From contig JADQBG010000008.1 in the NCBI GenBank assembly GCA_016278725.1, forward strand, positions 65,680-119,677: a stretch of DNA of 53,998 nucleotides, in the 5' to 3' direction. A program made the translations under genes and the position numbers. The stretch is from Actinomycetota bacterium (GTDB lineage: Bacteria; Actinomycetota; Thermoleophilia; RBG-16-64-13). Within the stretch, counting starts at the first letter, position 1. Every line of letters starts with the position of its first letter. Shown piece by piece: positions 46,928-53,900 of this stretch. The notes beneath the pieces are model-generated. The model was given only the letters and a program-made list of their open reading frames with translations, searched no databases and had not been told where the DNA came from.

Positions 46928-47254
46928 GTGGGTGACGGACAAGTGCGGGACATCGATACGACTGTGTTTGACGACGAGGTAATCAGCGCGGACGGCAAGG
47001 TGGTGGTCGACTTCTGGGCGCCATGGTGCGGCCCCTGCAAGATGGTCGGACCGGTGCTCGAGAAGCTCGCCGGTGAACACACCGAGAGCGTCAAGGTGCT
47101 CAAGGTCAATGTGGATGAGAATCAGGAACTCGCGGCCCGTTACGGCATCATGAGCATTCCCACCGTGATCCTCTTCGAGAAGGGCCAAGTTTCGGCTCAG
47201 ATCATCGGTGCGCGGAGCCAGAAGGACTACGAGCGCGAGTTCGGGCTCGTTTAG
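46928..47254 (+). CDS. trxA: Thioredoxin
   Basis: A 108-residue thioredoxin with the active site FWAPWCGPCKMVGPVLEKLA (Cys34, Cys37) and the cis-proline loop MSIPTVILFEKG. It reduces protein disulfides and is itself reduced by a thioredoxin reductase. GTG 46928 has AAAGGAG 6 nt upstream. It heads a same-strand series: Sec protein (9-nt gap), FmdB-type zinc ribbon and CcmH-like protein, with a terminator after the last. The promoter region carries a CsoR-type operator. Confidence 0.96.
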   Translation: MGDGQVRDIDTTVFDDEVISADGKVVVDFWAPWCGPCKMVGPVLEKLAGEHTESVKVLKVNVDENQELAARYGIMSIPTVILFEKGQVSAQIIGARSQKDYEREFGLV

Positions 47255-47262
47255 GAGGCAGT

Positions 47263-47592
47263 GTGTCAGGCGTAAAGACCGGAGAACTGGTCGTGGTTGG
47301 TTCGCACGCATACGATGCGTGCCGCGGGGGCGGTTGAGCTCCTCCTCTGTCTCTGGAAGAGACGGTGGGTTACATCAATCGCTACCTGCAGCAGGACTAC
47401 GGCGATCACGTTCGCATTCGCTACGTGGACGTCGACAGTTCAGAACTGGCGGAGTATCCTTCATTGGCCAAAGCAGTCGAGGAGGGCCTTCCTCTGCCCG
47501 TGGTTCTTTCGGGCGACGAGGTGAAGACCCCGCCGGTGCTCTCATTCGGCTGGGTGGTCAACGAACTCAAAGCTCAGGGAGCGCTGGAATAG
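47263..47592 (+). CDS. Candidate selenoprotein: small thioredoxin-fold-like protein with in-frame UGA (Sec25)
   Basis: The frame starts at GTG 47263 (AGGAGG 4 nt upstream, overlapping the trxA stop), reads 24 codons to a TGA at 47335-47337 and continues in the same frame to TAG 47590-47592: 109 residues if the TGA is selenocysteine. Before the TGA is GELVVVGSHAYDACRGGG; after it APPLSLEETVGYINRYL, then a VRIRYVDVDSSELAEYP strand and LPLPVVLSGDEVKTPP. The beta strand, redox site, helix, strand and proline-bearing segment look like a thioredoxin-like fold related to small YuzD/DUF1462-type proteins that carry cysteine at this place. A hairpin with SECIS geometry follows the TGA. Downstream, FmdB begins with no gap. 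Alternative: a pseudogene split by a Cys-to-stop mutation, but the frame, start site and hairpin argue against this. Confidence 0.72.
47343..47369 (+). promoter_or_regulatory. SECIS-like hairpin after UGA 47335-47337
   Basis: Seven pairs CUGUCUC (47347-47353) with GAGACGG (47359-47365, one G-U pair) close a UGGAA loop; a U-U mismatch and three more pairs (UCC 47343-47345 with GGG 47367-47369) extend the stem. The loop G at 47355 is 18 nt after the UGA. Bacterial SECIS elements need a loop G near this distance. Confidence 0.65.
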
Positions 47593-47805
47593 ATGGCGTC
47601 TTACGATCTGCGCTGCACGTCATGCGGGAGCGATTTCGAGGTCTTCGTGCAGGGATTCCTGAAGGACGAGAATCGGCTCTGCCCTGACTGTGGCAGCCGC
47701 GAAGTCGAACAGCGGTTCACCGGATTCATGGCCTGCACTTCCTCTTCCTCTTCGTCTTCGAGCGGCGGCGGAGCTTCCAGCTGTCCCTCGAGCGGCTTTG
47801 GCTGA
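47593..47805 (+). CDS. FmdB-type zinc ribbon protein
   Basis: A 70-residue protein with two CxxC pairs (Cys8/Cys11 and Cys30/Cys33; MASYDLRCTSCGSDFEVF and LCPDCGSREVEQRF), the FmdB regulatory-protein fold. The C-terminal 25 residues are a serine run followed by glycine and a second pair of cysteines (MACTSSS and SSCPSS), typical of small FmdB proteins. ATG 47593 follows the previous TAG without a gap. Exact role unknown; members often lie with redox or C1 genes. Confidence 0.88.
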   Translation: MASYDLRCTSCGSDFEVFVQGFLKDENRLCPDCGSREVEQRFTGFMACTSSSSSSSSGGGASSCPSSGFG

Positions 47806-47851: not shown

Positions 47852-48385
47852 ATGTCGCGTGCTGACGTTAAAGGGCTGGGGCTAGGCTACCCTGCCCTGT
47901 TGCTCTCGGCCTTTCTGGTCGTGGCTGCCATGTTCGTGGTTCCCGGAGCCGCTTGGGCCGCTACGGCGGACACGCTGTCTGCCGAGCAGGAATCGCTGGC
48001 TCGGTCTTTGGAGGGAGAGCTGATTGCTCCCTGCTGCTACACTCAGACCGTCGCGGAGCACGACAGCGAGAAGGCGGAAGAGATAAAAGCCCAGATACGT
48101 TCGCTGGTGGCAAGCGGCTCGGACAAAGGCGAGATCCTCGGTTTTTTCAAAGAGCGTTACGGCTCGCAGATACTTGCCGCTCCCGAAAAGTCAGGCTTCG
48201 GTCTGATGGCCTATCTGTTCCCCACCTTGGCCACGCTGGTGGCCCTCGGCGCGATCTTGTTCGTGATTCAGCGTTGGCGGCGCCGGGATGAGTCCGCCGT
48301 TGCGGTGCCGATCCCGGTCAATCGAGAAGGCTCCGATCAGGCACGCGCCCGGTTGGACGAAGAGCTGCGTCGATTCGACGACTAA
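47852..48385 (+). CDS. CcmH-like cytochrome c maturation protein
   Basis: A 177-residue protein with a signal-anchor helix (about 13-36), a small domain and a second transmembrane helix (about 133-157). The domain ELIAPCCYTQTVAEHDSEKAEEIKA...IRSLVASGSDKGEILGFFKERYG corresponds to CcmH/CycL, which keeps the haem-binding cysteines of apocytochrome c reduced. The usual CxxC is replaced by adjacent Cys61-Cys62 (PCCYTQ). ATG 47852 has GAGGAG 5 nt upstream. Last gene of the trxA series, followed by a strong terminator. The nine-haem cytochrome and other c-type cytochromes are possible clients. Confidence 0.8.
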   Translation: MSRADVKGLGLGYPALLLSAFLVVAAMFVVPGAAWAATADTLSAEQESLARSLEGELIAPCCYTQTVAEHDSEKAEEIKAQIRSLVASGSDKGEILGFFKERYGSQILAAPEKSGFGLMAYLFPTLATLVALGAILFVIQRWRRRDESAVAVPIPVNREGSDQARARLDEELRRFDD

Positions 48386-48700
48386 GGGCGGCGCCTAAGG
48401 GCGTCTAAGCTGTGTCAATCTGTTGTACGTGAGGGCGGCCCCCCAGGGCCGCCCTTTTGTTTTGCGCTGCGCCTGCCATTTCACCCTGAATGGAGGGGTT
48501 TCGCCGGCACCGCAAAGTCAATAGAATCGGGAGCAGTGCAGGAACCGCCGCGGGCAAATGCTTGCCACACGAGCGTTTCTCGGGGCGCAGAGCCGGTTGG
48601 GGGGTCCGGCGCCTTGAGCCGGAACTCGTCTCGGTCTCCTCTTCCCGCACCCTGTGAGGGCGGCCCCCCGGGTTTTGGTGAATCGGAAGGAGGTTGATGG
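48386..48700. other. Intergenic region between the trxA series and the hydrogenase operon
   Basis: This 315-nt stretch holds a strong terminator near its left end and otherwise no gene I can support. The 16-mer GTGAGGGCGGCCCCCC occurs twice, at 48429-48444 (inside the terminator) and 48654-48669. The hydrogenase promoter must lie in the second half, but I cannot point to clear -35/-10 or sigma-54 elements. Confidence 0.6.
48432..48463 (+). terminator. Rho-independent terminator after the CcmH-like gene
   Basis: AGGGCGGCC (48432-48440), loop CCCCAG, GGCCGCCCT (48447-48455): a perfect 9-bp stem followed by TTTTGTTTT. It lies 46 nt after the CcmH-like stop. Confidence 0.9.
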
Positions 48701-48805
48701 ATGAGGCTCACCCGTCTCGAGTTCCTCAAGTTTCTGTACGGCGCTCTGGCCGGCACGGGAATTGGCGTGGCGCTCAAGAATCTGCGCAAGGGGTGGTCGG
48801 CGTGA
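48701..48805 (+). CDS. 34-residue small membrane protein at the head of the hydrogenase operon
   Basis: A short gene with an excellent start: AAGGAGG 7 nt before ATG 48701. It encodes MRLTRLEFLKFLYGALAGTG followed by IGVALKNLRKGWSA, then TGA at 48803-48805, which overlaps the small-subunit GTG (GTGA). The hydrophobic centre (FLKFLYGALAGTGIGVAL) with charged ends suggests one membrane-spanning helix. It resembles a Tat signal without the twin arginine (RLEFLK instead of RRxFLK). Translational coupling to the hydrogenase small subunit suggests a role in assembly, anchoring or translation control. I know no named family for it. Confidence 0.7.
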   Translation: MRLTRLEFLKFLYGALAGTGIGVALKNLRKGWSA

Positions 48806-49908
48806 ACCGGCTCGAGAAGGCCCTGGAAGCGCATGATCTCAGCAGGCGAGACTTCCTCAAGGGCTGCGCCGCGCTGGCCGCGGCCATGGGATTGGGAAGC
48901 TCGTTCGCTCCCAACATTGCCCGGGCGCTCGCGCAGGCGGCCGAGCGCCCGCCGGTCGTCTGGGTGACCTGGCAGGAATGCTTGGGTTGCACCGAATCCG
49001 TCACCAAGAGCCGCAACCCCGACTTCGTCAGCCTGGTGCTCGATCTGGTCAGTGTCGAATACCACGAGGCGATCATGGCCGGTGCGGGAGAGAGTGCGCA
49101 CCAGAGCCTGCAGAAGACCGTGTCCGCGGGCGGCTACGTACTGGTGGTCGAGGGGTCGGTGGCCACCGGCATCGAGAATGCCATGACTGTCGGAGGCCGG
49201 ACTTCGGTCGACATCGCCCGGGAGGTCATCCCGGCGGCGGCACTGGTGATCGCCATTGGCAACTGCGCCGCCTTTGGTAACGTCCAGGCCGCCTACCCAA
49301 ACCCGACCGGAGCCGTGGGCATGCTGGAGTTCATGGAGAGCGAGGGCATGGATACGGAGAAGCTCGTGCAGCTGACCACCTGCCCCGTGAATCCGGTTCA
49401 CCTGACTTCGACCATCACCTACTTCCTGACCCGCGGGGCTTTGCCCGAGACCGATCACTGGCGCCGCCCGCTGGTTCATTTCGGCAAGAAGGTTCACGAC
49501 ATGTGCGAGCGGCGGGCTCACTTCGACGAGGGCCGCTTCGTCGAGCAATTGGGCAGCGAGGCCGAGTTCAACCGTTATTGCCTGTACAAGATGGGCTGCC
49601 GCGGCCCCAGCACCTTCGCCGACTGTCCTCAGGTCCTCTTCAACGGGCGCACCTCCTGGTGCGTGCAGGCGGGGCAGTGCATCGGCTGCGCCGAGAAGGA
49701 CTTCTGGGATGAGTTGATCGACTTCTATCAGCCCCTACCGGGGATCGCCATTCCGGGAGTCGGGGGGATCCGCGCCGACGCCGACACCATCGGCATCGGG
49801 CTGGCTGCCGCCACAGGTGCTGCCATCGCCGCCCACTTCGCCGTCAGCGCCGCCCGGGGGCGCCTCGGCAAGACCCAAGAGGTGGTCGAGAAAGAGGAGG
49901 AGGTCTAG
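48802..49908 (+). CDS. [NiFeSe] hydrogenase small subunit, Tat-exported
   Basis: A 368-residue small subunit with a Tat signal (SRRDFLKGCAALAAAMGLG), so the enzyme faces the cell exterior. The proximal cluster starts with CLGCTES (Cys60, Cys63), then GNCAAFG and TTCPVNPVH. The distal and medial clusters use the C-terminal set NRYCLYKMGC, FADCPQVLFNG, SWCVQAGQCIGC. A C-terminal hydrophobic stretch (about 330-350, GIGLAAATGAAIAAHFAV) would anchor it. GTG 48802 overlaps the stop of the 34-residue gene. The large subunit begins with no gap (TAG-ATG) after GAGGAGG. Confidence 0.93.
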   Translation: MNRLEKALEAHDLSRRDFLKGCAALAAAMGLGSSFAPNIARALAQAAERPPVVWVTWQECLGCTESVTKSRNPDFVSLVLDLVSVEYHEAIMAGAGESAHQSLQKTVSAGGYVLVVEGSVATGIENAMTVGGRTSVDIAREVIPAAALVIAIGNCAAFGNVQAAYPNPTGAVGMLEFMESEGMDTEKLVQLTTCPVNPVHLTSTITYFLTRGALPETDHWRRPLVHFGKKVHDMCERRAHFDEGRFVEQLGSEAEFNRYCLYKMGCRGPSTFADCPQVLFNGRTSWCVQAGQCIGCAEKDFWDELIDFYQPLPGIAIPGVGGIRADADTIGIGLAAATGAAIAAHFAVSAARGRLGKTQEVVEKEEEV

Positions 49909-51546
49909 ATGCCGAAGATCATCATCGACCCGGTCACCCGCATCGAGGGCCACCTTCACGTAGAGGTCGAGGTGGAAAACGGAGTGGTGAAGGACGCCTG
50001 GACATGCAGCACCCTCTTCCGCGGCATGGAGACCATCGTCGAAGGGCGGCCCTGGTACGACGCTCAGCATTACACCGAGCGGATCTGCGGAGTTTGCCCA
50101 GCGCCGCACGGGCACAACTCCGCCTTTGCCCTGGAAGACGCCGCGGGCGTGAACATCCCCGTGAACGGCCGCCTGATGCGGAACCTGCTCGAGTGCGGGC
50201 AGTTGCTCCATGACCACGTGCTCTGGTTCTACGTCCTGAACGGCCTGGACTATGTGAACGTGCCCAGCGCGCTCGGGGCCAAGGCTTCCTCCGAGGAGTT
50301 GCAGACGGTGCAACGGCGGCTTCAGGTCTTCGTGGATTCCGGCCAGCTCGGCTTCCTGGAGAGCGGCTACTGGGACCATCCGGCCTACACGCTGCCCCCC
50401 GAGCTCAACCTGCAGCTGGCGGCTCACTATCTCGAGTCGGTCTCCATTCAGGCCACGGCCTCGGAGGCCTTCGCCGTGTTCGGCGGCAAGTTCCCCCACC
50501 ATATGTCGACTCCGCCAGGCGGCTGGTCGTCTGTGCCCCACGAGGAGCAGATCAACCGTTACGCCTTCAAGGTGCGGGAGGTCAAGGACTTCATCGACAA
50601 CAAGATGGTTCCCGACCTGTTGGCCATCGCGCCCTACTATCTGGATCAGGCGAGTATCGGGCAGGGTCACGGCAACTACTTCAGTTGGGGCGTGCTCGAC
50701 TGGAACGACCTGGAGGAAGGCCGCCCCGAGAACCGCTTCTTCCCCCAGGGCGCCATAATCGGTGCGCTGGAGGGAAACCTCGAGGTTCAGCCCGTCAACC
50801 AACTGGAGGACGTGCTTGTCTGGTACAACAGCACCTGGCAGGAGCCCTTCAACGGCGTGCACCCCTACGAGGCCAAGCAACGGCCGGACTTCACCGGCCC
50901 CCACGGCATCACCGAGGTGGCGGGGCTGGACCGGTACGCCTGGGACCGGAGCTCGACTCTAAAGGGGGTCCCCTGCGAGGTGGGTCCCCTGGCGGAGATG
51001 TTGATGGCCTACCTGGTTCACGGGGACTCCCATCCGGCCAAACAGATGGTGGACAGCACGCTGGCCGCCGTCGGTCAGGCGGGTAACGTTCCGGTGCTCT
51101 TCTCCAACCTCGGACGGATCGCCGCCCGCACGCTCAAGATCCAACTGGTGGCGGATCAGACTCTGGCCTATGTCGAGGCTCTGCGCGAGAACATGAAGAA
51201 CGGGGACCTCGATTTCTTCGCGCCCTTCCCAGATAGCCCCAGCGGCCGGGGCTTCAGCGGCTGGGACGCGCCTCGCGGTTCGCTGGCGCATTGGGTCGAA
51301 CTGGACGGTGGCGTGGTCAGCCACTACTCGGTGATCACTCCTTCCGGGTGGAACTTTTCCCCGCGGATGACTTCAGATCGGATCCGGGGGCCGGTGGAGG
51401 AAGCCCTCGTGGGCACCCCGGTGGCCGATCCGGAACGGCCGTTGGAGGTGTTGCGCACCTTGCACAGTTTCGACCCCTGAATGGCCTGCTCGGTTCACGT
51501 GATTGAACCGAAGAGCAACCGGGTTCTCGACTTCAAGGTGCGGTGA
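49909..51546 (+). CDS. [NiFeSe] hydrogenase large subunit with selenocysteine (Sec524)
   Basis: The catalytic subunit of a [NiFe]-type hydrogenase. The N-terminal Ni ligands are in RICGVCP (Cys60, Cys63). A conceptual translation stops at TGA 51478-51480 just after LHSFDP, but the frame continues for 21 codons as MACSVHVIEPKSNRVLDFKVR and ends at TGA 51544-51546. Reading the first TGA as selenocysteine restores the universal C-terminal motif as DPUMACSVH (family DPCxxCxxH), with Sec524 and Cys527 as Ni ligands. The maturation protease would cut after the His, removing a 15-residue tail. A strong SECIS-like hairpin follows. Without readthrough the enzyme would lack two Ni ligands. Length 545. 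A cytochrome b gene follows after 12 nt. Confidence 0.93.
51487..51517 (+). promoter_or_regulatory. SECIS hairpin of the hydrogenase large-subunit gene
   Basis: UCGGUUCA (51490-51497) pairs perfectly with UGAACCGA (51504-51511) around a CGUGAU loop; UGC (51487-51489) and GCA (51515-51517) can extend the stem past a 3-nt bulge. The loop G at 51499 is 19 nt after the UGA, within the bacterial SECIS range. Confidence 0.8.
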
Positions 51547-52337: not shown

Positions 52338-53900
52338 GTGAGCACTCCAGAGAGCAAATCGTCGGGTTACGACGTGATCGTGGTGGGCGCGGGACCGGCC
52401 GGCCTCTCCGCCGCTATGAATGTGGCCAACCGCAAACGCTCGGTGGCGGTGTTTGACGCGCTTCGGCCTTTTTCCAAGACCCGGCGCGCGCCGCAGATTC
52501 CCAACTACCCGGGCTTTACCTTCACCACCGGGGAGGAGCTCGCCGACAGCTTTCTCGAGCATCTGGAGCGTTTCGAGGTGACGCTGCTCAAGGAGAGGGT
52601 GACCCGCATTCTTCCCGGCGAGGAGGAGTTGATGCTGTCGACCGACCGGGATAACTACCACGCCCAGGCAATCATCCTGGCGCCCGGGGTCTACCGGGGC
52701 TCGACCCTCGAGGGCGAGGACGATCTGGTGGGCATGGGCGTCAGTTATTGCGTCAACTGCGACGGCCGCCTGTACGCCGGCCGCGAGGTGGCGTTCATCA
52801 GCTACGCCCAGGAAGGCGAGGAAGAGGCCGCCGCCCTGGCGGAGGACATGGGCTCCCAGGTGAAGTTCATCCCCTTGTACGAAGGCGCCTACGAGCTTCC
52901 CGCCGAGGTCGAGGTCCTCCCGCGGCAGCGGCCGGACCGCCTGTACCGCGAGGGGATGAAGGTCCATGTGGTGCTGCCGGACCGGGAGCTCGTGGTCGAT
53001 GGGGTGTTCATCTTCCGGGAGAGCGTCTCCCCGTCGACGCTCGTGGACGGTCTCGAGTTCGAGGGCCGGCACATCAAGGTCAACCGTAAGATGGAGACCG
53101 GCATCCCCGGGATCTTCGCCGCGGGGGACTCCGTGGGGGAGCCTTACCAGATCGCGAAGGCGGTGGGAGAAGGCCAGGTCGCAGCGCTGAGCGCCGTGAG
53201 ATTCGCCCGCAGCCGGGAAGGCGGACGCCCGGAAGAGCCGCACGCCATCACCTCGGAGGACCGGGCCAATCTGTCTCGCATCTTGGCAAAGCTGCAGGAG
53301 CCGGTGAGGCTCCTGCACATGACCCAATTGCCGGATTCGGAAATGACCAGCCTTGCCTGTCACGAGTGCGAAGAAGCTCGGCGTCTGCTGAGCGAGTTCG
53401 CGGGGCTGTCGCCCAAGCTCGAGCTCGAGTTGCTGGACTTCTTGCAGGATCACGAAAGGGCCGAGGACCTGGGAGTCGAGCGCATCCCCGCCACTCTTCT
53501 CGGCACGGAGGGCGAGCAGTATCCCCGCATCCGTTTCTACGGGGTACCCGCGGGTTACGAGTTCGGCGCGTTTTTGGACGACGTGATGGATCTCTCCCGC
53601 GGGGAGCTTCGCCTGAGCGAGCAGACCCGGGAGGGCCTGAGCGCACTGACGGAGCCGGTTCACCTCGAGGTGCTGGTGACACCCACCTGCCCCAATTGCC
53701 CCGGGGTCGTGCGCTTGGTTCACCGCTTCGCCATGGCCTCGCCTCAGGTGACCGCGGATATGATCGCCGCCACGGCTTTCCCCGAGGTGGCTCAGCGCTA
53801 CCAGGTGTCCACCGTGCCGACGCTCGTGGTGAACGGCCAAGTTGCGCCGCCAGGGCCCCTCAGTGAGGAACGCCTGCTGGAGTTGATCGGCAAAGGGTAG
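52338..53900 (+). CDS. Thioredoxin reductase-like flavoprotein fused to a PDO-type double thioredoxin fold
   Basis: A 520-residue fusion. Residues 1-300 are thioredoxin-reductase-like: FAD motif VVGAGPAGLSAA, redox site CVNC (Cys138, Cys141) and the C-terminal FAD block IFAAGDSVGEPYQIAKAVGEG. The NADPH subdomain lacks the GGGxxA motif and the HRRxxxR arginines; where they belong one reads FISYAQEGEEEAAAL. Residues 320-520 hold two thioredoxin folds with CHEC (Cys341, Cys344) and CPNC (Cys451, Cys454) plus STVPTLVVNG, as in protein disulfide oxidoreductases. The reductase may therefore use ferredoxin or another donor and pass electrons internally to the PDO part. GTG 52338 start; monocistronic after a strong terminator. 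Confidence 0.88.
   Translation: MSTPESKSSGYDVIVVGAGPAGLSAAMNVANRKRSVAVFDALRPFSKTRRAPQIPNYPGFTFTTGEELADSFLEHLERFEVTLLKERVTRILPGEEELMLSTDRDNYHAQAIILAPGVYRGSTLEGEDDLVGMGVSYCVNCDGRLYAGREVAFISYAQEGEEEAAALAEDMGSQVKFIPLYEGAYELPAEVEVLPRQRPDRLYREGMKVHVVLPDRELVVDGVFIFRESVSPSTLVDGLEFEGRHIKVNRKMETGIPGIFAAGDSVGEPYQIAKAVGEGQVAALSAVRFARSREGGRPEEPHAITSEDRANLSRILAKLQEPVRLLHMTQLPDSEMTSLACHECEEARRLLSEFAGLSPKLELELLDFLQDHERAEDLGVERIPATLLGTEGEQYPRIRFYGVPAGYEFGAFLDDVMDLSRGELRLSEQTREGLSALTEPVHLEVLVTPTCPNCPGVVRLVHRFAMASPQVTADMIAATAFPEVAQRYQVSTVPTLVVNGQVAPPGPLSEERLLELIGKG

Follow-up and report, generated by a model that had tools for sequence, protein, structure and literature searches.

Background

To our knowledge, the DUF1462 (YuzD) family has a solved structure and no known function. 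PDB 1xg8 (S. aureus SA0798) is a DUF1462 member, and the proteins of this family are called YuzD-type putative disulfide oxidoreductases. Thioredoxin-fold proteins with selenocysteine (Sec) are common as such; most known selenoproteins are small proteins of this fold with Sec before the first helix (PMC13188914). Published criteria for the bacterial Sec insertion element (bSECIS) are a loop of 3-9 nt with G in the first two places, a stem of 4-16 bp, a distance of 16-37 nt from the UGA and a minimum free energy of at most -7.5 kcal/mol (PMC13188914). Here we describe a gene, referred to as X, that very probably encodes a selenoprotein, of thioredoxin fold and related to DUF1462, in an Actinomycetota bacterium. 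The window is the whole stretch of DNA analysed, 53,998 nucleotides long, and the features used below are as follows.

46928..47254, plus strand: trxA, thioredoxin (WCGPC), first gene of trxA-X-fmdB (TIGR01068, 121 bits, above cut-off)
47253..47258, plus strand: AGGAGG, putative ribosome-binding site of X (from the sequence)
47263..47592, plus strand: X, proposed selenoprotein gene (109 aa, Sec at residue 25, motif CRGGGUAPP)
47335..47337, plus strand: UGA probably read as Sec (TGA at codon 25 in 27/27 class members, and 15 further UGA loci)
47347..47365, plus strand: putative SECIS hairpin, CUGUCUCU-GGA-AGAGACGG (8 bp, 3-nt loop, 17 nt past the UGA)
47593..47805, plus strand: FmdB-family zinc-ribbon protein, adjoining X (TIGR02605, 42.1 bits; PF09723, 44.5 bits)
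47852..48385, plus strand: CcmH/NrfF-like protein, next in the gene group (PF03918, 77.3 bits)
49909..51546, plus strand: NiFeSe hydrogenase large subunit (PF00374, 461 bits; Sec at TGA 51478-51480, DPUMACSVH)

Results

Reading frame and coding selection

A preliminary description of this DNA had proposed one frame broken by a single UGA, and the frame is as claimed. It runs from GTG 47263, preceded by AGGAGG, to TAG 47590-47592, and its sole interruption is the TGA at codon 25. The trxA stop at 47254 lies 8 bases 5' of the start of X, and the ATG of the FmdB-family gene at 47593 stands directly at its stop. The part after the TGA had been said to have no good start of its own, which is borne out: the sole in-frame start there is GTG 47365, giving 75 aa, and since just 3 of 27 relatives keep a GTG there (elsewhere ACC, GTC etc.), it is not a conserved start. 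When X was compared with seven relatives of the same family, pN/pS was 0.00-0.42 on the 5' side of the TGA and 0.09-0.45 on the 3' side. The two ranges are much alike, and the comparison shows purifying selection on X on both sides of the UGA.

The UGA could alternatively be an ordinary stop, the locus then consisting of two short ORFs or being a pseudogene or a sequencing error. Automatic ORF calling does yield the 75-aa ORF from GTG 47365; the occurrence of the TGA in 41 genomes, the selection on both sides of it, the non-conserved start and the covariation of the hairpin (see below) contradict this explanation, and we regard it as extremely improbable.

Conservation of the UGA among homologues

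A scan of genome contigs, reaching beyond Actinomycetota, with the X protein as single query returned actinobacteria only; three genomes matched at 69-94% identity, and in each of them codon 25 is TGA. Homologues were then collected from samples of 396 genomes of the phylum and 349 genomes of the class. X was present in 27 class members including the window's own genome; in each, the frame contains one TGA and no more, always at this codon. A wider profile added 14 genomes from f24, f46, f63 and f73, four further GTDB families, with the TGA at a G-U-G motif. In total, the family has 42 UGA loci in 41 Actinomycetota genomes of six GTDB-level families, the UGA sitting at a Sec-type motif, [S/G]G-U-x-P or G-U-G. 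No relatives were found in viral contigs and plasmids.

Cys forms of X were absent among close relatives, and all non-UGA homologues were remote. Cys occupies the Sec column in L024 (CGGCG / GGCGC), L102 (GGSCGP) and L030 (CNICG), as well as in 1xg8, and Tyr occupies it in L025. Of the genomes whose homologues are non-UGA forms, two, G071 and G115, have no selA. Cys20 of X is not universal, being replaced by Trp in L040 and L069.

The hairpin after the UGA

All 27 class sequences, when folded from 9 nt on, form CUGUCUCU-GGA-AGAGACGG or variants of it 17 nt past the UGA, and in some sequences of f3, the second lineage of the class (L016, L020), the minimum-energy fold differs from this hairpin when the UGA and the first bases are included. 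The window copy has an energy of -8.8 kcal/mol alone and -13.5 kcal/mol with the lower stem. It agrees with the published bSECIS criteria, and several relatives are weaker than the -7.5 kcal/mol limit. In the 26 distinct sequences all eight pairs are standard throughout, and 24 cells are changed on both sides of the stem. The pair at the base of the stem varies as C-G or U-A across lineages, the next as G-C, U-A or U-G, and the one after that as G-U, G-C or A-U. The covariation score was reached by none of 500 shuffles, and sliding the partner strand destroyed the signal; because the shuffle control leaves relatedness in, the slide control and the cross-lineage pattern weigh more.

Codon usage beneath the hairpin is nearly fixed, with TCT, CTG and GAG each in 27/27 and GAA in 25/27, while among the same sequences an equally invariant Leu farther along X uses five codons and further unchanging residues are encoded by many. 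At each of the 42 loci the UGA is followed, 17-22 nt on, by a stem-loop whose loop contains GG, in agreement with what a bacterial SECIS needs; at the 15 distant loci the hairpins differ in sequence, and those of L096 and L097 have just 4 bp uninterrupted. Rfam searches at gathering and relaxed thresholds gave no match.

Sec machinery

The window genome carries selA (556 bits) on contig C18 with selB (344 bits) adjoining it, a tRNA-Sec (selC) with anticodon TCA on contig C14, and a selD that is itself a selenoprotein gene with TGA in the motif GSGUACK (L072, G000 contig C26:106754-107677). Thus all four of selA, selB, selC and selD are in the host. Among class members, selA was found in 26 of the 27 genomes bearing X vs 162 of 322 others (Fisher P=6e-7, uncorrected for phylogeny), and over the whole family in 38 of the 41 UGA genomes. 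The three UGA genomes in which selA had no match are G455 (76% complete), which has a clear tRNA-Sec, G360 (77%) and G094 (97%); in the last, whose locus L088 is a UGA form, the searches gave no selA and no convincing tRNA-Sec. Matches to tRNA-Sec scoring near 47-50 bits were put down to other tRNAs, since equal scores occur in genomes that lack selA.

The hydrogenase large subunit is a second selenoprotein of the window and served as internal control. Together with its small subunit (48694-51546) it makes up a NiFeSe-type hydrogenase in an actinomycete, and its DPUMACSVH motif likewise occurs in L009, L010 and L011.

One might also suppose that the UGA is recoded as Trp, Gly or Cys, a reading with which the open frame by itself would agree. 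The genome has tRNA-Sec, selA, selB and selD; TGA is also used as a plain stop, e.g. that of the hydrogenase gene; a hairpin at such a place is expected only for Sec; and in remote relatives the site is occupied by Cys. These observations make another amino acid highly implausible. With the UGA homologues, the remote Cys homologues, the hairpin past the UGA and the complete selA-selD set that were looked for all found, the initial proposal of a selenoprotein stands. The conserved UGA, the SECIS element, the Sec machinery and the coding selection across the UGA lead us to propose, with a probability of roughly 0.93, that X encodes a selenoprotein with Sec inserted at the UGA.

Fold and family

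No Pfam or NCBIfam model matches the window protein. A scan of 17 members against NCBIfam release 20 gave only a chance-level RecU match (E=0.095) and no selenoprotein family. A profile of the 17 members matched PDB 1xg8 (E=7e-5, positions 8-107), with Sec25 aligned to the second Cys of CASC. The window protein does not match PF07315 (DUF1462) at its gathering cut-off; 4 of 17 relatives match it weakly (best 3e-4), the Cys form L030 lies barely over the cut-off (25.1 vs 25 bits), and no DUF1462 protein was found in the window's own genome. Nor does X belong to PF00085, having no Pfam match and the motif CRGGGU rather than CxxC or UxxC.

An AlphaFold model built with four sequences (pLDDT 83.7) has the thioredoxin order of strands and helices. 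The predicted topology is beta-alpha-beta-alpha-beta-beta-alpha, the third strand being preceded by a conserved Pro (invariant P79), and the active-site loop 17-27, which holds Sec, has pLDDT below 50. VIA-align placed ArsD first (3kgk, Z 7.8, 85 residues, 2.7 A), with 1xg8 at Z 7.2 (102 residues) and many thioredoxins at Z 6-7; with Foldseek by itself, nothing matched under 1e-3. From the profile match, the model and the VIA-align comparison we conclude that X, expected earlier to be thioredoxin-like, has a thioredoxin fold, that it is a relative of DUF1462 and perhaps of ArsD, and that it is outside PF07315 by the Pfam test.

Gene neighbours and possible function

X is flanked by trxA in 9 of 9 testable same-family relatives and by fmdB in 10 of 10 checked, and the closest relatives also keep ccmH and the hydrogenase near trxA-X-fmdB. 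The partnership with thioredoxin suggested in the preliminary description has this conserved operon of one lineage in its favour, but the trxA link is confined to the window's GTDB family and absent elsewhere, so the partnership is only suggestive. About 5 kb downstream of the trio, at 52338-53900, a thioredoxin-reductase-like FAD domain is fused to a protein disulfide oxidoreductase domain (TIGR02187, above cut-off).

As a working mechanism, X would be a small cytosolic protein, and the hairpin at 47347-47365 would direct SelB to place Sec at UGA 47335. Sec25 would lie in the loop that leads into the first long helix, at the place of the redox Cys of thioredoxins and DUF1462, and X would be a thiol/selenol oxidoreductase with Sec25 as its nucleophile. 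For most members Cys20 probably serves as the resolving residue, and the few members without it would need an outside thiol. In the window lineage the adjacent thioredoxin is the likely candidate for reductant. We give X about an even chance of working as an oxidoreductase, and put its reduction by thioredoxin slightly below that.

The neighbours in other lineages are different. At the 6 loci seen in f3, X adjoins the gene of a PP-loop protein that resembles ThiI/MnmA and carries an NFACT-R RNA-binding domain, and two of these loci also have a TudS-type thiouracil desulfidase gene. At L033 and L035, X, the PP-loop/NFACT-R protein and TudS may form a selenoprotein-containing cassette that thiolates or dethiolates tRNA. 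X could on this ground be a carrier or reductant for transfer of sulfur or selenium to and from tRNA bases. Such neighbours were not seen beside X in the window lineage, f24 or f46, and a persulfide relay would lack a second Cys that is strictly conserved, which makes this role quite unlikely.

An arsenic operon at L036 (G244 contig C6:30001-46000) reads arsD-arsR-arsA-arsA, a remote UGA relative (GAGGUGP), fmdB and an ACR3-like transporter. The same genome has a second relative of Cys type (L030) adjoining a HypC-like gene, and a remote relative in G071 lies beside arsM. A selenoprotein binding metalloid or metal as an ArsD-like chaperone, instead of transferring electrons, would fit these two arsenic contexts, the top structural rank of ArsD and the resemblance of its C-G-P (GMCGPTIDP in the ArsD of L036) to the U-G-P of X. 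The Z of 7.8 is level with many thioredoxins, there is no Pfam ArsD match, and no ars genes were seen beside X in the window family or f3; we consider a metalloid chaperone somewhat unlikely. Returning to X as a thioredoxin-fold selenoprotein in general, its gene neighbourhoods suggest a role with sulfur or metalloids instead of bulk disulfides.

Discussion

In the 119-family selenoprotein table published in 2026, none of the entries is DUF1462-like or YuzD-like, and none has the motif C-x-GG(G)-U-(A/G)-P (PMC13188914). Searches of the open-access literature for YuzD with thioredoxin and for DUF1462 with selenoprotein returned nothing, and for ArsD with selenoprotein only irrelevant papers; naming in subscription papers or unreleased models is possible. 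The family thus is apparently uncatalogued, in line with the earlier expectation that annotation would miss it, and its comparative support is unusually strong. Since close Cys forms are nearly lacking, the usual approach through Cys homologues would overlook it. Automatic ORF calling truncates X to 75 aa or splits it, and the conserved hairpin offers a pattern by which the gene can be found and annotated correctly. DUF1462/YuzD also gains a Sec-bearing relative with informative gene neighbours. A broader idea is that the types seen in the window, f3, f24 and f46 form a Sec-dependent YuzD/ArsD superfamily acting on non-disulfide substrates (metalloids, thiolated or selenated tRNA bases), with Sec ancestral in the phylum and not a recent Cys swap; this we think unlikely.

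Comparison with known systems

Sec-Trx, Sec-Grx, SELENOW-like, SaoT, TsoX and HUIPC proteins are, like X, small and of thioredoxin fold with Sec before the first helix, but none of their NCBIfam models matches X or 16 relatives. The arsenic metallochaperone ArsD supplies the top VIA-align chain, a C-G-P like the U-G-P of X, and ars operons around remote relatives, whereas it has no sequence-family match to X, its Z is tied with thioredoxins and the window lineage has no ars context. The DUF1462/YuzD-type proteins (PF07315; SA0798, 1xg8) are alike in size, in the full-length profile match and in the alignment of Cys with Sec; they have CxxC, whereas X has CxxxxU or CxxxU, together with Sec and a SECIS element.
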